Assembly (NCBI GenBank): GCA_024279425.1
Contig: JAJRRO010000097.1
Location: 1 to 64,000, forward strand
Length of the DNA: 64,000 nucleotides
Reading direction: 5' to 3'
Source: Bacteroidota bacterium
GTDB taxonomy: Bacteria; Bacteroidota; Bacteroidia; Flavobacteriales; Flavobacteriaceae
Part shown: positions 34,664-42,184 of the stretch, piece by piece
Layout of the letters: every line of letters starts with the position of its first letter
Numbering within the stretch: position 1 is the first letter of the stretch
Made by a program: the position numbers and the translations under genes
Notes under the pieces: generated by a model
Database searches by the model: none
What the model was told of the DNA's origin: nothing
What the model saw: the letters and a program-made list of their open reading frames with translations, nothing else

Positions 34664-35014
34664 CTATTTTTTGGTTGCTTTTAATCGCAAGGTATAAATT
34701 AATAGTATCACAGCAGTAATTGCCAACCCTAAAGCTTCCCTGCCCTCTTCAATATTCTTGATGTCTCCTTCGCCAATGGTAATGCCTTCAAACTTTTCCG
34801 GCCAGAATACCAGTGTTCCGACAATATAGGCGACAAAAAGAACAACAGAGGCCAGATATGGTAGTTTATCAACCAAGAACAAAATAGAAGCCAAGGCGGC
34901 CACCCCATAAATAACGTACCATAACATAGGGTCTACATCATTGGCTTGGACAACAATTGAATAAACGAACCATGCCGTAAAAATAAGTGCAAGAACTTTG
35001 AAAACTGTTTTCAT
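34664..35014 (-). CDS. TMEM220-like membrane protein, downstream of the ebo operon
   Basis: A 116-residue protein with four hydrophobic helices (around VFKVLALIFTAWFVYSIVV, PMLWYVIYGVAALASILFL, YLASVVLFVAYIVGTLVF and LGLAITAVILLIYTLRL). It resembles the transmembrane-220 family, whose role is unknown. I chose ATG 35014 (MKTVFKVLALIF); a longer frame from 35059 would run into the upstream gene. It starts 10 bp after the eboF stop, so it is almost certainly transcribed with eboABCDEF. Confidence 0.8.
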   Translation of the reverse strand: MKTVFKVLALIFTAWFVYSIVVQANDVDPMLWYVIYGVAALASILFLVDKLPYLASVVLFVAYIVGTLVFWPEKFEGITIGEGDIKNIEEGREALGLAITAVILLIYTLRLKATKK

Positions 35015-35024
35015 AATAAGGGTT

Positions 35025-36401
35025 TTATGTATTAAGTATATGGTTTTCCAACACGCCAAAAACTTCTGTGGCCAATACTGTTGGTTTTGATATCAAATCC
35101 TTGTTATTGCTTATTAAAATGGGGTGGTCAGCCTCGTCATCCGGTATTCTACCATGCGACCCCTTTACCAAATTTGCATCAATGGGAATAATGTTCAAGA
35201 CCGTTCTAAAACCCAATTTCTTCATCAGCAATTTCCAGACTACCTTGGCCATCACAAACTTATCAGCAGGATCAGTAAGCATTTCCACGGGATCATATCC
35301 CGGTTTTTTGTGAATATCCACCATCCTCGCATAGTCCGGGGCTTTTTTATCATCCAACCAAAAATAATACGTAAACCACGAATTTTCATCAGCAATGGCA
35401 ACTAAATCCCCGCAACGGTCATGATTTAAATTGACGTTGTCCAATTCATCATCAGACAGCACCCGTTCAACTCCATTTTGCTTTTCAAGCAATGCTCTTA
35501 CCTCTTGCTTTATAGACTGATCCTTAATATAAATATGGGCTATCTGGTGATCTGCAACAGCAAATGCCTTACTTGCCCCAGCATCCAAAAGCTCTAATCC
35601 ACGTTCGGTTCTAATCTTCAATAAACCTTGGGTGCGTAAAACGCGATTTAAATGGATAGGGTTGTTTACACTGGTAATGCCATATTCCGATAGTAAAATC
35701 ACATTTGCACCCTGCTTCTGATAGTAGGTGACCAACTGTTTTACAACAGCATCAATTTCAGTAAGATCTTTTGATATTTTATCAAAATCAATTCCATATC
35801 GCTGTAGGTTATAATCCAGATGGGGCAAATAGACCAAGGTCAGTGTAGGGTCATGCAACTTATCTGTTTGTATGGCAGAATCCGCTATCCATTGACTTGA
35901 TTTAATAGAGGTCTTAGGGCCCCAAAAGTGAAATAAAGGAAATGTACCCAATGTTTCCTGTAAGGTATCCCTTAGTTCAGCCGGATGCGAATAAATATCA
36001 GGGATTTTACGTCCGTCAGCCAAATAATTGGGCCTAGGTGTCACGCTATAATCCACCGAGGAATACATATTATACCACCAAAAATGATTGGCACAACTAA
36101 AGTTTTCATTTGCTCTTTTTAGCTTGTCCCAAATTTTATCCTCTTGAACAAGATGATTGGATTGTCTCCAGAATTTAACCTCGCATTCATCCTTAAAATA
36201 CCATCCATTACCAACAATCCCATGTTCCGCTGGCCATTTACCCGTAAGATACGTGGATTGGGCCGAGCAAGTAACCGCTGGTAATACCGGAGTGATAGTA
36301 GCCGAACTGCCTTCTTGTAAAAATGACTCAATATAAGGGGTGTGCTTACCAATCAATCTTTTAGTCAATCCCACAACATTAAGCACAACCGTTTTTCGCA
36401 T
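35025..36401 (-). CDS. eboF: Alkaline phosphatase/nucleotide pyrophosphatase superfamily protein EboF
   Basis: A 458-residue phosphodiesterase/phosphatase-fold protein. The nucleophile region is PVLPAVTCSAQSTYLTGKWP, followed by EHGIVGNGWYF. Metal-site motifs appear in LVYLPHLDYNLQRYG, LLSEYGIT and GSHGRIPDDEADHPIL. It lacks a signal peptide, so it appears cytoplasmic. It is the last ebo gene, 4 bp after eboE. In cyanobacteria the ebo cluster takes part in export of a scytonemin precursor; the substrate in flavobacteria is not known. Assignment as EboF rests mainly on the exact A-F gene order. Confidence 0.87.
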   Translation of the reverse strand: MRKTVVLNVVGLTKRLIGKHTPYIESFLQEGSSATITPVLPAVTCSAQSTYLTGKWPAEHGIVGNGWYFKDECEVKFWRQSNHLVQEDKIWDKLKRANENFSCANHFWWYNMYSSVDYSVTPRPNYLADGRKIPDIYSHPAELRDTLQETLGTFPLFHFWGPKTSIKSSQWIADSAIQTDKLHDPTLTLVYLPHLDYNLQRYGIDFDKISKDLTEIDAVVKQLVTYYQKQGANVILLSEYGITSVNNPIHLNRVLRTQGLLKIRTERGLELLDAGASKAFAVADHQIAHIYIKDQSIKQEVRALLEKQNGVERVLSDDELDNVNLNHDRCGDLVAIADENSWFTYYFWLDDKKAPDYARMVDIHKKPGYDPVEMLTDPADKFVMAKVVWKLLMKKLGFRTVLNIIPIDANLVKGSHGRIPDDEADHPILISNNKDLISKPTVLATEVFGVLENHILNT

Positions 36402-36405
36402 TGGA

Positions 36406-37596
36406 TTATAGCCTTTCTGTTAACCAGTTAATTTCCCTGATAATAGATTCGGAAATGTCTTTCTTTAATGCCTTGGGAAGCACATCCCAGGTGTAAGTCT
36501 CAATTTCCAAGTGCTCAGAAACATTATTATTTTTAAGAATATCAATAACCTTTAGAATATGGTCTTGGGTTGAAGATAAAGATCCAAATTCTTCCAAGAA
36601 GATCGGGACATGAAAATGGGCCCTAAGCTCCTCAAAATCGGGTTTGTTTTCCAAAACAATTGGCAAATCGTTATACGTAACCACTTTACCATCTTTTTTT
36701 TCAGTGACTTGATGCAAATATGTTGGCTCGTTAAAGGCAGCCAAGGCCTCCCAAATCTGTTTGTTATCAGAACCGTCCGAAATAATCTTAAGTGCCGCGC
36801 TTACTTGTATTTTTCCAATTTTTATACCTGCTTCAGCAAATTTTTGAAAAGTTTCGACGGGCTCTTCGTAGGCTAGGGAAAAATGGCAAATATCATAGCA
36901 AACAGTGATATGTCTGTAAATTAAATCTTCAACGCACAATTCATCTCCCAGCTTATCTTTAAGTTTTGGAACGGCAACGGGTAAAAGATGTTCTTTAAAA
37001 AAACGTAATACCTCATCGCTGTTCTCCATAAAACCGTCTGGCTCTGGCTCAATGTCCAAATGGAGATGTTTACCGGTTCGCTTTTCCAAATCATGCAATT
37101 GAAGTATGATTTCAGTTAGGTTTTCTGCACCTTTTACAAATGCACTATGTTGTAATTCTTCCGATGCATACCAGTGTTTATAACTAATGGGTGATGTAGA
37201 AATGCCCCCGCTCATACCATCCGGTAAGAGATAGGCCAATTGCTCAAAGAGTCTTTGGGTATAGGTTAATCTGTCTTGAGTCGTCCAATCCGGTGCATGC
37301 ACCATATCCTTAACTCTTTCATTATGAAAATTCCCATAAGGGAATCCGTTCATAGTGAACACATACAAATCATTGGTAATCAACCACTCTTTAAATTCGG
37401 TCAGATTATTTTGTTCATTCAATTCTGCACTGGCCACATTCGATAGACGCAAGCCCAGACCAAACTGATTCGATTTTGAAACACGTTTTTTTATGCCGGG
37501 AACAAATTCTTTAAGACTATCAAAAGTAGCCTGCCAATCGGCACCGGGATGAATATTGGTACAATAGGTTACTTGATTTTTAGCGTTGACGAACAT
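36406..37596 (-). CDS. eboE: Metabolite traffic protein EboE (TIM-barrel, xylose isomerase-like)
   Basis: A 396-residue TIM-barrel protein. Visible barrel motifs are YCTNIHPGADW at the start, HLDIEPEPDGFMENS and TVCYDICHFSLAYEEP. These carry Asp, Glu and His residues like those that bind metal in xylose isomerase-like enzymes. No signal peptide is seen. It is 1 bp from the eboD stop and 4 bp before eboF. The EboE family is named for its part in the ebo cluster; no catalytic reaction has been shown that I know of. Confidence 0.9.
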   Translation of the reverse strand: MFVNAKNQVTYCTNIHPGADWQATFDSLKEFVPGIKKRVSKSNQFGLGLRLSNVASAELNEQNNLTEFKEWLITNDLYVFTMNGFPYGNFHNERVKDMVHAPDWTTQDRLTYTQRLFEQLAYLLPDGMSGGISTSPISYKHWYASEELQHSAFVKGAENLTEIILQLHDLEKRTGKHLHLDIEPEPDGFMENSDEVLRFFKEHLLPVAVPKLKDKLGDELCVEDLIYRHITVCYDICHFSLAYEEPVETFQKFAEAGIKIGKIQVSAALKIISDGSDNKQIWEALAAFNEPTYLHQVTEKKDGKVVTYNDLPIVLENKPDFEELRAHFHVPIFLEEFGSLSSTQDHILKVIDILKNNNVSEHLEIETYTWDVLPKALKKDISESIIREINWLTERL

Positions 37597-37597
37597 C

Positions 37598-38755
37598 TTA
37601 TGCTTTTTGTTTATTTAATTCACTCAATGTAAGTACGGCCTTCTTCATCAACTGCATGTCGATTTCATGGACGTCTCGTTTTTTTCCGATCCTGGAGAGC
37701 AAGGTTATAGTAAGTTCTCCCCCCAAATGCTCCCTAAACTCTTCAATACCATTTAACAGCTCATCCACCTGGGCTTCGACAGGCATTGACAGATCAAAGC
37801 CAATCTTCTCAAAAAGGTCAATTACTCTATTTAAATCACTTTTATTTATCAACCCAATGAGCTGGGTATAAATAACATCCAACACTATACCTTTTGCAAC
37901 GGCCTCCCCATGTCTGAGAGAATAATGGGTCATTTGCTCCATTTTATGGGCCGCCCAATGCCCAAAATCCAAGGGTCTGGAAGAACCACTTTCAAACGGG
38001 TCGCCCCCTTGCGCAATATGGTGCATGTGTATCTCTGCACATTTGTGAATCAAATACTGCATGGTCTCTTCGTCGCGCTGCCGAATCTTTATAGCATTGT
38101 TTTCCAAGAAATGAAAAAACTCCACATCCTTGATCAAAGCAACCTTTATGGCTTCAGAGACCCCTGCAATCCAATCTCTTTGTTCCAAGGTTTTTAGAAA
38201 TTCGCTATCATTGATTATCGCATATGGTGGAGAGAAAGTGCCCACAAAATTTTTCTTGTTGAAGGCGTTTATTCCATTTTTAACCCCTACGGCAGAATCG
38301 TTCTGAGATAGGACCGTAGTCGGTATTCTAATTAACTTTACTCCTCTGTGTGCTATTGTAGCGGCATAACCCGCCATGTCAATAACCGCACCCCCTCCAA
38401 TGACCACCACAAATGAATGCCGGCAAATCTGCTTTTTATTGATTGAAGAAAGAATCTTTGTAACCGAAGTATCATCATTCTTACTCTGTTCCCCTCCTTT
38501 GACAACCAAGATGTCAGTAAACTTCAATACATCTTCATATGCCTTGCAATACGATTCGATTTTATGCACAAGTTGCGGATGATTATTGGCAACGCCATCA
38601 TCAACAACAAACAATAATTTAACCTTTTTGCCACCTCCGTAAACAGCTATAATATCACTGAACAACTTATTATCTAAATGAAATAAATCCTTCGTAAAAT
38701 GAAGTTTATATTCATAAGAGACTTTGAACGATTGTTCTATGGGCTTTAAAAACAT
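37598..38755 (-). CDS. eboD: 3-dehydroquinate synthase-like protein EboD
   Basis: A 385-residue member of the dehydroquinate synthase fold, distinct from housekeeping AroB. NAD-binding GGGAVIDMAGYAATIAHRG and IPTTVLSQNDSAVGVKNGIN are present, as are the zinc ligands in DFGHWAAHKMEQM and LRHGEAVAKGI. It may make a cyclitol or another cyclised sugar product, as other sugar phosphate cyclases do; that is inference. It is 9 bp from eboC and 1 bp before eboE in the operon. Confidence 0.9.
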   Translation of the reverse strand: MFLKPIEQSFKVSYEYKLHFTKDLFHLDNKLFSDIIAVYGGGKKVKLLFVVDDGVANNHPQLVHKIESYCKAYEDVLKFTDILVVKGGEQSKNDDTSVTKILSSINKKQICRHSFVVVIGGGAVIDMAGYAATIAHRGVKLIRIPTTVLSQNDSAVGVKNGINAFNKKNFVGTFSPPYAIINDSEFLKTLEQRDWIAGVSEAIKVALIKDVEFFHFLENNAIKIRQRDEETMQYLIHKCAEIHMHHIAQGGDPFESGSSRPLDFGHWAAHKMEQMTHYSLRHGEAVAKGIVLDVIYTQLIGLINKSDLNRVIDLFEKIGFDLSMPVEAQVDELLNGIEEFREHLGGELTITLLSRIGKKRDVHEIDMQLMKKAVLTLSELNKQKA

Positions 38756-38764
38756 TGATTTCTT

Positions 38765-39667
38765 TTAGGTTACGGCGAATATTTTTGAAAGAACGAATGA
38801 AATTGGAAGTAATGCAAGTATCAACAAACCATATTGCCAACTACTGTAACCGACCGCCAAGGCAGCATCGAGCACAATTAGTGATAAAACCCCAGCTTTT
38901 ACGGCATTTTTGATGTTCTTAGGTGCGTTGTGCTTATAAGCTTTCAATAAAGGCCTAAAAACCAAAAAACCAAAAAGTATTATAAAAGGAATGGCCTGCA
39001 TCATATTATCGGTATTCATCAGTTGAATACTTGCGACCATAAAGATAACAATGCTATAAAGAATACCCGCCCAAATGATGTGGTTTTTATTATTGCCATG
39101 TACCTCTCCCCTGCTTATCAACGTAATTGCAAAGATATAGACCATGGGTATCAAGGCATACCATAAAAACTGAACACTCCCTAAAATTGCCATTCCCAAG
39201 ATGAGGTTTAATGCTCTGCATAGGCCCATGTTCAGCGGACCAAGGATACCATGCTTTTTTAAAAAGGAATCATAGGCCAGTATCGATACCGCCAATGCAA
39301 TAGCAATAAAACCGCATTTGTTGTTGGCAACAAATGCCAGCAGAATGCCTAAAACCATAAGAAAACCACCATACATTGAAGCACTCTTTACAGAAACAAC
39401 CCCACTGGGAATAGGCCTTTCAGGCCTTTCCACTTTATCAATTTCAATATCAAAGACATCGTTTAATACCACACCTCCAGCATAAAGGAGGACTGAAGAA
39501 AAAACCAGAAATAAAATATCGACAAAAATAGTGGAGCTAAGAAAAGACATGTCTTTAAAACTCACATAAGCTCCAGCAATTGCGACTCCTGAAAGAATGT
39601 CAGCCGCTGCCGTCGGTAGATTTGCCGGGCGGGCAAGCCTTGCGTAACCAACCAATACCTGACTCAT
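38765..39667 (-). CDS. eboC: UbiA-like prenyltransferase EboC
   Basis: A 300-residue integral membrane protein with about eight to nine helices. The first Asp-rich motif of UbiA enzymes is clear: NDVFDIEIDKVERPERP. The second motif is weak (ILAYDSFLKKHGILG). UbiA enzymes attach isoprenyl chains to aromatic or polar acceptors at the membrane. It suggests that the ebo product is prenylated or that a prenyl carrier is used. It starts 1 bp after the eboB stop and is followed closely by eboD. Confidence 0.92.
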   Translation of the reverse strand: MSQVLVGYARLARPANLPTAAADILSGVAIAGAYVSFKDMSFLSSTIFVDILFLVFSSVLLYAGGVVLNDVFDIEIDKVERPERPIPSGVVSVKSASMYGGFLMVLGILLAFVANNKCGFIAIALAVSILAYDSFLKKHGILGPLNMGLCRALNLILGMAILGSVQFLWYALIPMVYIFAITLISRGEVHGNNKNHIIWAGILYSIVIFMVASIQLMNTDNMMQAIPFIILFGFLVFRPLLKAYKHNAPKNIKNAVKAGVLSLIVLDAALAVGYSSWQYGLLILALLPISFVLSKIFAVT

Positions 39668-39668
39668 A

Positions 39669-40586
39669 TTACTTTATTTGGTCAGCATCTATTCTGGGCT
39701 CCTGTCCTCTAAGCACACTATTGTCACTGAACAGCTTGGTTTGGTTTATGCCCTCTGGGTCTAACCAATGGGATTCTTTCATCTTACCGTTTCTGCTAAA
39801 AAAGTCCAAAGCATTTTGATAACAGGTTTTAACAACATCGTTTTTGGCGATACCTCTTTTCAACATTAGGGATGCCGTTTTAGGAACTGCCAGCGGATCA
39901 CTCACACCCCAATCGGCTGAGCTATCCACAATAATATTATCACTACCAAATTTTCTCACCACTTCGACCATACGTTCATTACCCATTTTTGTTTTGGGAT
40001 AAATAGTGAATGCCGCAATAAAACCTCGATCCAGAACATCTTTTACTGTTTCCTCGTTATTATGGTCTATCACCACTTGTGTGGGATCCAAGCCATGCTC
40101 TAAACAAACCTCCATACTTCTTAAAGTACCCGCCTTTTTATCTCGGTGCGGGGTATGAACCTGAACCATCATATTGAGTTCCTTGGCCAGTTCCAATTGT
40201 TCCCGAAAGAATTTGTCCTCAGCTGGGGTCTGATCGTCATATCCTATCTCACCAATGGCCACAACATTTTCTTTATGCAGGTATAAGGGCAACAACTCCA
40301 TGACCTGCTCGGCAAGTGCTTCATTATTGGCTTCTTTGGAATTCAATCCAATGGTACAATAATGTTTAATACCAAACTGACTGGCCCTAAAAGGCTCCCA
40401 CCCTACCAAACTGCTAAAATAATCTTGAAACGAACCTATCTGTGTCCGGGGCTGCCCGAGCCAAAAAGCGGGCTCTATTACAGCTACTACGCCTGCAGCT
40501 GCCATCGCCTCATAGTCATCAGTGGTTCTAGCTGACATGTGTACATGGGGATCTATAATCATTAACATTTCTTCCATAACTATCAT
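39669..40586 (-). CDS. eboB: TatD-family metal-dependent hydrolase EboB
   Basis: A 305-residue amidohydrolase-fold protein. The metal-binding HxH is in IDPHVHMSARTTDDYEAM. EIGYDDQTPAEDKFF carries the Glu of TatD enzymes, and further ligands are in QVHTPHR and DSSADWGVSDPLAVP. The start overlaps the eboA stop as ATGA (4 bp), showing translational coupling; later in-frame ATGs at codons 4, 7 and 9 are alternatives. Its substrate is unknown. Confidence 0.92.
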   Translation of the reverse strand: MIVMEEMLMIIDPHVHMSARTTDDYEAMAAAGVVAVIEPAFWLGQPRTQIGSFQDYFSSLVGWEPFRASQFGIKHYCTIGLNSKEANNEALAEQVMELLPLYLHKENVVAIGEIGYDDQTPAEDKFFREQLELAKELNMMVQVHTPHRDKKAGTLRSMEVCLEHGLDPTQVVIDHNNEETVKDVLDRGFIAAFTIYPKTKMGNERMVEVVRKFGSDNIIVDSSADWGVSDPLAVPKTASLMLKRGIAKNDVVKTCYQNALDFFSRNGKMKESHWLDPEGINQTKLFSDNSVLRGQEPRIDADQIK

Positions 40587-41437
40587 TTTAAACTTTTCCA
40601 GGCAAACTCATTATTACTCACCTCTTTTAATAGATCGGGGTATTTTTCCAAAAGTAGTTTTGCCTCCGTCTTATTTGAATTGTAACAACACAAAGCTGCA
40701 GCCCTATTCTCATTCAAGTTTTCGCTTTTGAACAATTGCTCAATGTCATTGATCAAATCTCCTTCGATATAATTGGAAACCGGTCTCCAAAAAATAGGAT
40801 CTATGTCTCTTGATGCCGCCCATCTTTCATGTGCATAATCCGAAATAATCCGAGTTAAATCCTTATTGGCCCTAATATCAACATCCAATATCTTCGTTAA
40901 ATCCCTTTGCATAAAAGCCGCTTTCAGATACATCTGATTCCATTGCTGCTCATTAAAATATTTGGATGGGTAAGGGTTATTTAGGGTAATCGCATCAAAA
41001 ATGGTACTTATATTGGTCCTCAAGGCCTCCACAGCTGCGAAATTATAATTTTCGGCATTCGGAAGTAACACCAAATATTTTAAAAAAGTCTCTAGTTCAC
41101 CTGTATCCGAAACCTGAATAACATTAGCTACCTTGTCTCTGAAGAATTCACCATCTTCTTTTAAAACGAGTGAAAGTAAATAAACCCTACTGATCTGCAG
41201 TAGGTCAGCCTTCTGTAATTCCAAATAGACTTTTAAATCCCCATCGATGTCATTGAGGTTCACCCTATCGGATTTGTTCATTTTCCCTCCCAATAGGCTA
41301 TACATCAAATATAGTTTCTTCGCTGATTTGGTAGATACTACCTCCTGCTGTTTTTCTTGAATCCAACTTGTAGTGGAATCGTCAAGACTTTGCTTTAAAA
41401 CCACCCATAAATCCTGACTTACTTTCAACGTATTCAT
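40583..41437 (-). CDS. eboA: EboA family protein
   Basis: A 284-residue soluble, mainly helical protein without recognisable catalytic motifs; helices recur as in HEAT-like proteins. It is identified as EboA from position and length: first in an unbroken eboA-B-C-D-E-F series, with its stop overlapping eboB by 4 bp. The gene has a -7 box about 70 bp upstream and is divergent from miaE. Function unknown; it may scaffold the other Ebo proteins. Confidence 0.85.
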   Translation of the reverse strand: MNTLKVSQDLWVVLKQSLDDSTTSWIQEKQQEVVSTKSAKKLYLMYSLLGGKMNKSDRVNLNDIDGDLKVYLELQKADLLQISRVYLLSLVLKEDGEFFRDKVANVIQVSDTGELETFLKYLVLLPNAENYNFAAVEALRTNISTIFDAITLNNPYPSKYFNEQQWNQMYLKAAFMQRDLTKILDVDIRANKDLTRIISDYAHERWAASRDIDPIFWRPVSNYIEGDLINDIEQLFKSENLNENRAAALCCYNSNKTEAKLLLEKYPDLLKEVSNNEFAWKSLK

Positions 41438-41507
41438 AAACTTCGGTTATCATCATTTTATTTGGCAAATTCCAAGCATTCCCTAGTGCCATATTGATAA
41501 CTGCAAA

Positions 41508-41515
41508 CAAAAATA
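41508..41515 (-). promoter_or_regulatory. -7 promoter box of the ebo operon
   Basis: TATTTTTG on the minus strand, a perfect TAnnTTTG, giving a leader of about 65 nt before the eboA ATG at 41437. The -33 element is weak (TTA at a spacing of about 20). Confidence 0.4.
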
Positions 41516-41602
41516 TACATTATAAGTCTGCCTCATAAATTTTGCCACAAAAAAAGTAATGTGTTTCATAGAATTCTTTATAATTTTACAAAAATATGAG
41601 CT

Positions 41603-42184
41603 ATGCTTGGCCTTAAACTGCCCACAGACCCCAGATGGGTCAATATTGTAGAAAAAAATATCGATGAAATTCTCACGGATCATGCCTACTGCGAGCAAAA
41701 AGCGGCAAGTACTGCCATCTCCCTAATTGTATCTTATCCGGAATATACCGAATTAACCCAGGAAATGATCGCTCTTTCCCGAGAGGAAATGGCTCATTTT
41801 AAAATGGTCCATGATAGAATATTGGAAAGAGGGCAGGTCTTAGGACGGAATAGAAAGGATGACTATGTAATTCAATTGCTCAAGTTTTTCCCCAAAGGTG
41901 GAAGTCGCACAACCCAATTGGTTCATAGACTCTTATATGCTGCCCTCATTGAAGCCAGAAGTTGTGAGCGCTTCAGGTTATTATCAGAACAATTGCAGGA
42001 TAAGGAATTGGCTGAATTTTACCATAAGTTAATGATCAGTGAAGCCGGACATTATACCATGTTTTTAAAATTCGCTCGTGAATATGGTAATTTGGAAGAA
42101 GTAAATACCAAATGGCAGGCATTACTTGAATATGAGGCCGAAATAATGAAGGACCTGGGCAAAAAAGAAACGGTACATGGCTAA
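41603..42184 (+). CDS. miaE: tRNA 2-methylthio-N6-isopentenyladenosine hydroxylase
   Basis: A 193-residue non-haem di-iron hydroxylase of the MiaE family, ferritin-like. Iron ligands are visible in SREEMAHFKMVHDRILERG, LIEARSCERFRLL and SEAGHYTMFLKFA (Glu and ExxH-type motifs). It hydroxylates the isopentenyl group of modified A37 in tRNA. It is divergent from eboA with a 165-bp gap and convergent with ppk1 (6 bp between stops). miaA and miaB are not in the window. Confidence 0.92.
   Translation: MLGLKLPTDPRWVNIVEKNIDEILTDHAYCEQKAASTAISLIVSYPEYTELTQEMIALSREEMAHFKMVHDRILERGQVLGRNRKDDYVIQLLKFFPKGGSRTTQLVHRLLYAALIEARSCERFRLLSEQLQDKELAEFYHKLMISEAGHYTMFLKFAREYGNLEEVNTKWQALLEYEAEIMKDLGKKETVHG

Follow-up and report, generated by a model that had tools for sequence, protein, structure and literature searches.

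A complete flavobacterial ebo operon and the possibility of a prenylated cyclitol as its product

Introduction

What do the ebo genes make? Their occurrence spans many phyla and some plastids, and the papers that we found report no product for them since they were named in 2016. We approach this question from a 64,000-nucleotide stretch of a flavobacterial contig (JAJRRO010000097.1, positions 1 to 64,000; assembly GCA_024279425.1), hereafter the window, whose list of open reading frames (ORFs) contains six minus-strand ORFs that run from 41437 to 35025 and constitute an ebo operon, with eboA to eboF contiguous, on one strand and in canonical order. This is a complete and ordinary ebo operon of a structure already described for Bacteroidota, and its value lies in sharpening the question of the ebo product. 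The reading that we favor, and to which we give about an even chance, is that this product is a prenylated cyclitol lipid serving as a membrane carrier in export. The original prediction for this DNA, which was made from the sequence without database searches, had raised the idea of a prenylated cyclitol-like compound; we judge that idea to be sound, and it was already in print (PMC5133447, PMC6282210).

The ABCDEF operon described from Bacteroidota and eustigmatophyte plastids displays the same six families, order and direction as that of the window, and Yurchenko et al. 2016 identified Bacteroidetes as the most represented phylum and the probable plastid donor of ebo (PMC5133447). In Nostoc, every ebo deletion tested (eboD not being among them) blocks the transfer of the scytonemin monomer to the periplasm, and a carrier in export is the model of Klicki et al. 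2018 from these mutants (PMC6282210). The cyanobacterial and plastid background given in the original prediction agrees with these accounts. The scytonemin region of Nostoc punctiforme has homologous genes, among which eboD is close by but oppositely oriented, and it includes scytonemin genes (PMC6282210), whereas in the window all six genes are contiguous and, as had been anticipated, no scytonemin gene is found among the flanking genes profiled, i.e., the MiaE-like gene, a TMEM220-family gene and ten others (including DnaX, Ppk1, PdxH, RNase Z, RsmD-like and SixA-like). What is new here relative to PMC5133447 is the replacement of EboD by an unrelated ring former and an accompanying protein in other phyla, a change of the EboF metal site throughout its family, a series of empty sites in close relatives, and the link to a co-directional TMEM220 gene, a seventh gene that the original prediction had missed; no paper on these points came up in our searches of an open-licence library.

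Exchange of the ring former between phyla

A match to EboC was obtained in 42 records of a plasmid collection, and 19 regions of about 16 kb each were opened. In the following, INO1 denotes a homologue of myo-inositol-phosphate synthase and X an extra TIM-barrel isomerase-like protein of the PF01261 type. Eight of the 19 regions, from Deinococcus (2), Salipiger (2), Azospirillum, Roseivivax, Mycetohabitans and Aureibacter, are of the EboD type and contain neither INO1 nor X. All six Actinomycetota loci opened (three from Streptomyces, two from Embleya and one from Nonomuraea) instead feature INO1 and X, with no EboD within 8 kb of the prenyltransferase gene. The same pair stands in place of EboD in the single Gemmatimonadota locus (Gemmatirosa) and in three of the four haloarchaeal loci (Halocatena, Natronococcus and Halobaculum), the fourth, from Haladaptatus, having X-like genes and no INO1 in the opened stretch. 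Homologues of EboB, EboC and EboF are kept in all INO1-type loci, joined by EboE and EboA in the actinomycetes and by EboE and EboG in Gemmatirosa. The haloarchaeal sets are without EboA and have two short TIM barrels, which in Halocatena score 20.6 and 27.0 bits against the EboE model (cut-off 250).

Ring closure of a sugar phosphate to give a cyclitol is established for INO1 as well as for the cyclase family to which EboD belongs. Because EboD is replaced elsewhere by this unrelated ring closer, the exchange supports the view that EboD forms a cyclitol ring and is not a dehydroquinate synthase, and we regard it as the best available evidence that EboD would make a cyclitol. It also turns "perhaps a cyclitol" into a question that can be addressed directly by cross-complementation. 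In two actinomycete loci X and EboA lie in one reading frame; "xylose isomerase" hybrids with EboA were noted by Yurchenko et al., in whose main text the word "inositol" is absent (PMC5133447). No paper containing both EboA and inositol-3-phosphate synthase came up in a search of an open-licence library.

With 34 rows in each of the EboB and EboF trees, a minimum of two changes of the EboD/INO1 label is required, and the well-supported branches force two. The Gemmatirosa EboF falls among EboD-type Proteobacteria (support 99/98) and its EboB with EboD-type Deinococcus (100/100). The ten ebo-cluster INO1 proteins group together in a single clade (98/100), and nine of the ten usable Bacteroidota INO1 from ebo-less genomes form a separate clade (98/99); the tenth and the INO1 of the Bacteroidota genome G178 (see below) take no settled position in the tree. 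Ebo-cluster and ordinary INO1 have 44 invariant columns in common, including Lys 222, 269, 273, 301 and 362, in a comparison of 21 rows from which one long-branch row (L167) was left out.

The proposition that INO1 and EboD are mutually exclusive in Bacteroidota genomes was not upheld: none of 15 and none of 12 ebo genomes of the EboD type has INO1, compared with 33 of 182 and 42 of 186 genomes without ebo (p 0.08 and 0.07), neither comparison being significant, and these counts omit G178, the only ebo-positive genome of either sample without EboD, and have one genome (G162) in both the 15 and the 12. G178 itself displays an ABCEF set, its sole EboD match genome-wide being an AroB-like gene (103 bits), and codes for an INO1 elsewhere in the genome, with an X-like gene 16 bp after it. 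This INO1 lies outside the ebo-cluster INO1 clade, and G178 is suggestive only as a Bacteroidota case of INO1 and X replacing EboD. In a further genome (G518), the contig with eboE ends early and EboD is on another contig. One candidate X (34 bits, locus L118) was rejected as a generic TIM barrel.

The four haloarchaeal plasmids (L023, L024, L130, L131) code for a TatD, two short TIM barrels, a UbiA, an EboF-like protein and, in three of the four, INO1. On a Streptomyces plasmid (L022:5373-6572), a gene annotated as belonging to the ScyD/ScyE family stands immediately upstream of an ebo cluster of the INO1 type.

EboD among the sugar phosphate cyclases

We aligned the EboD of the window with five other EboD, two annotated sedoheptulose 7-phosphate cyclases, a DDGS-like protein and AroB. 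One of the EEVS-like references matches ValA (4p53) at 5.2e-98, and the DDGS-like reference matches PDB 5tpr at 3.6e-203, an entry that was deposited as a 3-dehydroquinate synthase (DHQS) and that we read as a DDGS. EboD displays the Zn and NAD features of a sugar phosphate cyclase: the residues that we take to be the Zn ligands (E201, H266 and H282) and the NAD-binding GGG...D region (G120-G122, D126) are each present in at least 97% of 109 EboD rows. At a site that we assume to be equivalent to Asn268 of the fungal DHQS, AroB has Asn and EboD has Asp263, as does the EEVS-like pair, which places EboD outside DHQS by this residue. His270 is kept as in DHQS, being Pro in the EEVS- and DDGS-like rows; hence, of the EEVS pattern as compared at these positions, EboD has the Asp and not the Pro. 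EboD further features a private motif, HWxAHK, which like Asp263 and His270 is found in at least 97% of the 109 rows. EboD has the fold and Zn ligands of the EEVS and DDGS cyclases and the Asp of EEVS, and differs from them in its DHQS-type His, its own motif and an identity of at most 28% to the EEVS, DDGS and AroB references (28% to a real AroB). A more extensive EEVS fingerprint of 14 residues is cited in PMC4426668.

A second, AroB-like homologue with the DHQS-type motif ILNFGHTLGH is present elsewhere in the genome. Because of the Asp at the Asn site, the private motif and this separate AroB-like gene, the database name "3-dehydroquinate synthase" appears doubtful for EboD, which Yurchenko et al. 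2016 placed outside DHQS by their tree (PMC5133447).

The prenyltransferase EboC and its acceptor

The first Asp motif, NDxxDxxxD, is present in all 118 EboC rows. The nearest solved relative by sequence is the digeranylgeranylglyceryl phosphate synthase 6m31 (E 7e-13, partial coverage), which we take to be an archaeal ether-lipid prenyltransferase; the two have the first Asp motif in common, and EboC is without the second. Biochemical data are available for counterparts, the UbiA-297 or G2 prenyltransferases of Maribacter, Zobellia and Algoriphagus, which are of the same kind as EboC and lie in the same neighbourhood in marine Flavobacteria: the Maribacter homologue farnesylates 8-hydroxyquinoline-2-carboxylic acid (8-HQA) and quinaldic acid in vitro, and those of Zobellia and Algoriphagus are also active on 8-HQA (PMC9235831). 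In that study the prenyltransferase alone was assayed. The claim of the original prediction that the flavobacterial product is undescribed stands for the product, although flavobacterial representatives of EboC had already been assayed.

These in vitro activities, along with a score of the window EboC above the EboC-equivalog cut-off, favor an alternative in which the operon makes a prenylated aromatic metabolite of the quinoline type, EboC farnesylating a quinoline-2-carboxylate and the other proteins making or tailoring the acceptor. However, no enzyme of the cluster resembles a quinoline maker, the replacement of EboD by INO1 and X is not readily accommodated by a route of this kind, and the assay panel consisted of 14 aromatic acceptors with no cyclitol in the portion of the paper covered (PMC9235831). 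We accordingly consider a quinoline-type product unlikely.

EboB, EboE, EboF and EboA

EboB retains the full TatD-type metal set, with H14, H16, E113, H144, H175 and D225, corresponding to what we take to be the TatD metal ligands (HxH, E, H, H, D), each conserved in at least 97% of 116 EboB rows. For EboE, a structural model (pLDDT 91.1) searched with Foldseek recovers the Art22 isomerase (3e-8), AsbF (6e-7) and IolI (1e-6), followed by many xylose isomerases. We take IolI to be an inosose isomerase and AsbF a dehydroshikimate dehydratase, both presumably acting on keto-cyclohexane rings.

The metal site of EboF was read by alignment with a classical NPP (L189; hhalign probability 98.4), whose residues D, T, D, H, D, H and H we take to be the metal and nucleophile site. 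The corresponding residues in the window are V10, T44, D196, Q200, E239, Y240 and H416. Across 121 EboF rows (119 distinct), these positions have V (121), T (121), D (121), Q (118, with L in 3), E (116, with G in 5), Y (121) and H (115, with 6 unaligned), i.e., four of the seven residues are altered in all rows and the catalytic set of the NPPs is incomplete in every one. By the residues involved, the Asp to Glu replacement is a mild change and the other three are not. Because the site is changed family-wide, the phosphodiesterase annotation of EboF appears doubtful, and a different catalysis is possible; the degenerate site is a warning against this usual annotation. The original description of EboF as a phosphodiesterase-fold protein thus holds as to the fold and not as to the metal site. 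In print, EboF has been predicted to be a phosphate hydrolase.

The AlphaFold2 model of EboA (pLDDT 95.7) is an all-helical superhelix, for which no PDB fold was recovered at E <= 0.001 (best 0.28), so that the model points to no function. Its weak fold neighbours are HEAT/ARM-like repeats, and the published guess of a TPR was not supported. Across 52 sequences R84, E114, R140, N142, N154, N167, Q168, K172, F175, N191, E204, R205, A208 and R210 are invariant.

A superhelix of this form would be suited to protein contacts, and taken with the degenerate site of EboF and the one export phenotype common to all tested Nostoc ebo mutants (PMC6282210), it lends some credence to a second alternative, namely that a membrane-anchored Ebo complex itself moves small molecules, the enzyme folds serving as scaffold with no dedicated lipid. 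This we hold to be improbable, as the motifs expected of active enzymes are almost invariant in EboB, EboC, EboD and EboE, and a swap for an unrelated ring former would conserve the chemistry rather than the surface contacts.

A possible pathway to a prenyl-cyclitol carrier

The prenylated cyclitol is preferred because EboD is exchanged for INO1 and X in other phyla, IolI and AsbF are among the fold neighbours of EboE, EboC has its first Asp motif throughout and is near an ether-lipid synthase, EboD has an Asp at its substrate site in a genome with another DHQS-type gene, and the tested Nostoc deletions all block the transfer of the scytonemin monomer (PMC6282210). In the pathway that we propose, EboD, or INO1 and the isomerase in other phyla, would close a phosphorylated sugar to a six-membered cyclitol ring, which EboE and EboB would rearrange or hydrolyse. 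The intramembrane EboC would then add an isoprenoid chain, probably as an ether, with EboA and the metal-site-degenerate EboF as partners that are either unconventional or without a catalytic role. The prenyl-cyclitol lipid so formed would act in the membrane as a carrier or cofactor for the passage of other molecules through the inner membrane, as has been proposed for the scytonemin monomer in Nostoc (PMC6282210). The protein families, conserved motifs, gene order, ring-former exchange and patchy presence are directly supported; what we infer is each substrate, the order in which the enzymes act, the ether linkage and the function as a carrier.

Several points weigh against this pathway. The second Asp motif (DxxxD), which we take to be a usual UbiA feature, is absent from EboC, its place being taken by T182 in all 118 rows and by E188 in 117 of them, and the farnesylation of quinoline acids fits an aromatic acceptor equally well. 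The fold kinship of the EboE model extends to the whole TIM-barrel isomerase fold and proves no substrate, and the degenerate site of EboF leaves the phosphate-handling step without an assigned enzyme. As for the exchange, every locus opened for the actinomycetes, the gemmatimonad and the haloarchaea was drawn from the plasmid collection. The ebo INO1 clade is divergent, the Streptomyces member scoring 43.6 bits against the mycothiol INO1 model (cut-off 638), and inositol phosphate is not proven to be its product. Finally, the INO1-type haloarchaeal sets are so divergent, having no EboA and no clear EboE, that their product may be another one.

More tentatively, we posit that ebo could be a single widespread lipid-cofactor pathway of bacteria and haloarchaea with a prenyl ether of a cyclitol at its core, whose ring former was fitted at least twice with unrelated enzymes, with EboF as a family-wide pseudo-phosphodiesterase and TMEM220 as a partner in the membrane in many cases. 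On this view, the carrier would represent a new class of bacterial isoprenoid ether lipid that exports diverse aromatic cargo.

In one betaproteobacterium and three Bacteroidota loci (L028:792-3810, L030:2150-5210, L034, L122), two genes resembling a split VioB are found just upstream of ebo. They code for a large protein, the Aureibacter copy of which aligns with the central part of the VioB model at 2e-7 (well short of the cut-off), and a PF12902 ferritin-like protein, hinting that ebo may accompany aromatic-dimer chemistry beyond scytonemin.

Distribution, shared history and the empty site

An EboE profile run against genome records yielded at least 576 confirmed relatives, the best 80 of which were used for counts of gene order. 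ABCDEF lies on one strand in 67 of these best 80, and this arrangement is therefore not due to chance; the others comprise four cyanobacterial layouts with eboD apart on the opposite strand, one with ABC reversed, and eight partial sets, several but not all of which are on short contigs. The presence of the genes is patchy: counting the host genome of the window in each case, EboE is above its cut-off in 16 of 198 genomes of the phylum and two of 12 of the genus, and EboC in four of 196 genomes of the order.

The original prediction had named unlinked histories of the six genes as an outcome that would refute it. In 100 loci with all six genes, their distances correlate in all 15 pairs (Spearman 0.444-0.725; the largest value in 100 label permutations per pair was 0.17). 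These loci are related and unthinned (98 distinct EboF) and have a common species history, and the correlation points to co-inheritance of the six genes within groups and nothing beyond that. Between phyla the set is partly mosaic: because the EboB and EboF trees disagree, placing the Gemmatirosa and Roseobacteraceae loci differently, some deep reassortment of the genes is likely.

In one Bacteroidota locus (L045, G179:C1:3566071-3567236), eboE is split across two frames, which may reflect decay or misassembly of the cluster. One Salipiger strain has a pair of closely similar ebo clusters (L026 and L134) on two different plasmids.

Within the genus, miaE is present in 10 of the 12 genomes and TMEM220 in eight. 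Both ebo-positive congeners have the operon between TMEM220 and miaE, and six of the ten ebo-less congeners have these two genes 76-80 bp apart in a clean junction. The remaining four consist of two with miaE, an adjoining dnaX and no TMEM220 match, and two fragmented assemblies with no miaE match. The order miaE-ABCDEF-TMEM220 is seen again in Eudoraea, Poritiphilus, Croceivirga, Allomuricauda and Robertkochia, among others of the best 80 relatives. From the empty-site series and this recurring order, it follows that the operon was gained or lost as a unit at a shared site. For metabolomics, the ebo-positive and ebo-less congeners, which differ at this one site in having or lacking the operon, offer a natural mutant series.

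The rarity of the operon in the genus and the order (two of 12 and four of 196 genomes) and its clean absence from the same site in six relatives would also suit a dispensable, possibly decaying accessory island with no present function in the host species. Such an island is very unlikely in view of the six intact frames, the conserved motifs, the 91-98% protein identity over the six genes between the two ebo-positive congeners, and the sharing of the site with other genera. Hardly credible is the last alternative, in which EboD is a DHQS that feeds the shikimate pathway and the operon makes a shikimate-derived aromatic: it has the profile match named "3-dehydroquinate synthase" (NF004852) in its favor, and against it the Asn to Asp change at the substrate site, the 28% identity to a real AroB, the separate AroB-like gene with its ILNFGHT motif, the replacement of EboD by INO1 in other phyla and the published tree (PMC5133447).

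Operon layout and neighbouring genes

The coordinates and profile matches of the window genes are given in Table 1. The first two genes overlap by 4 bp, and the gaps that follow are of 1 (eboB/C), 9 (C/D), 1 (D/E) and 4 bp (E/F), just as the original prediction had it in giving gaps of 9 bp or less, or overlaps, between six genes in canonical order. Its gene identities were also right; they are backed by the profiles and were already in print (PMC5133447, PMC6282210). EboA, EboC and EboE are each above the cut-off of a curated model (NF035938, NF035940 and NF035939, respectively). In the profile scan of the window proteins no ebo-specific NCBIfam model matched EboB, EboD or EboF, and these three are therefore assigned by homology and position. 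Under stricter models, EboA reaches 157 bits (NF035937, EboA_family) and the miaE-like protein 92 bits (NF047790), each short of a cut-off of 320. Scans for promoters and terminators returned about as many sites as expected by chance; the eboA/miaE region has 29 promoter-like sites versus 22.0 in shuffles (standard deviation 4.2), which is not clearly above expectation.

Table 1. Genes and other features of the ebo locus, with positions in the window and supporting profile matches (bit score > cut-off)
Feature	Position	Strand	Description and evidence
eboA	40583..41437	-	All-helical protein, no known catalytic fold; NF035938 144 bits > 50
eboB	39669..40586	-	TatD-like metallo-hydrolase; PF01026 (TatD_DNase) 68.5 bits > 27
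eboC	38765..39667	-	UbiA-type intramembrane prenyltransferase; NF035940 equivalog 376 > 250
eboD	37598..38755	-	Sugar phosphate cyclase, atypical as DHQ synthase; NF004852 558 > 333, and Pfam DHQ_synthase
eboE	36406..37596	-	Xylose-isomerase-like TIM barrel; NF035939 equivalog 486 > 250
eboF	35025..36401	-	Alkaline-phosphatase/NPP-fold protein, degenerate metal site; PF01663 (Phosphodiest) 227 bits > 23
TMEM220-family gene	34664..35014	-	Small membrane protein, candidate associated gene; PF15071 67 bits > 27
Divergent intergenic region eboA/miaE	41438..41602		Promoter-like site 41548-41519 (-), 10/12 matches
miaE-like neighbour	41603..42184	+	Outside the operon, marks the shared site; PF06175 145 bits > 27

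The TMEM220 gene is co-directional with the operon, its ATG at 35014 being 10 bp past the end of eboF. In the phylum sample, TMEM220 is present in 13 of 16 ebo-positive versus 13 of 182 ebo-negative genomes (p 6e-11), or, counted by genus, in 10 of 11 versus seven of 91. In five of the 13 phylum-sample genomes with both, it lies within about 6 kb of eboE, and in the other eight it is farther away or on another contig. In one family (f5), TMEM220 is found in 12 of 13 ebo-positive versus 106 of 186 ebo-negative genomes (p 0.016) and is thus common regardless of ebo; accordingly, its status as a specific seventh Ebo protein was not upheld, and it is retained as a candidate only. The TMEM220 of the window is 48-55% identical to the ebo-linked copies of ten loci from other genera versus 41-49% to those of six ebo-less congeners, whereas miaE shows the opposite trend, with 77-87% identity in the same ten loci versus 87-90% in eight ebo-less congeners. 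This divergence of TMEM220 would fit relaxed constraint after ebo loss; it does not by itself prove a shared function. In one ebo-less congener (G373:C27:33607-33936; L154, L161), the TMEM220 gene beside the empty ebo site has an in-frame stop.

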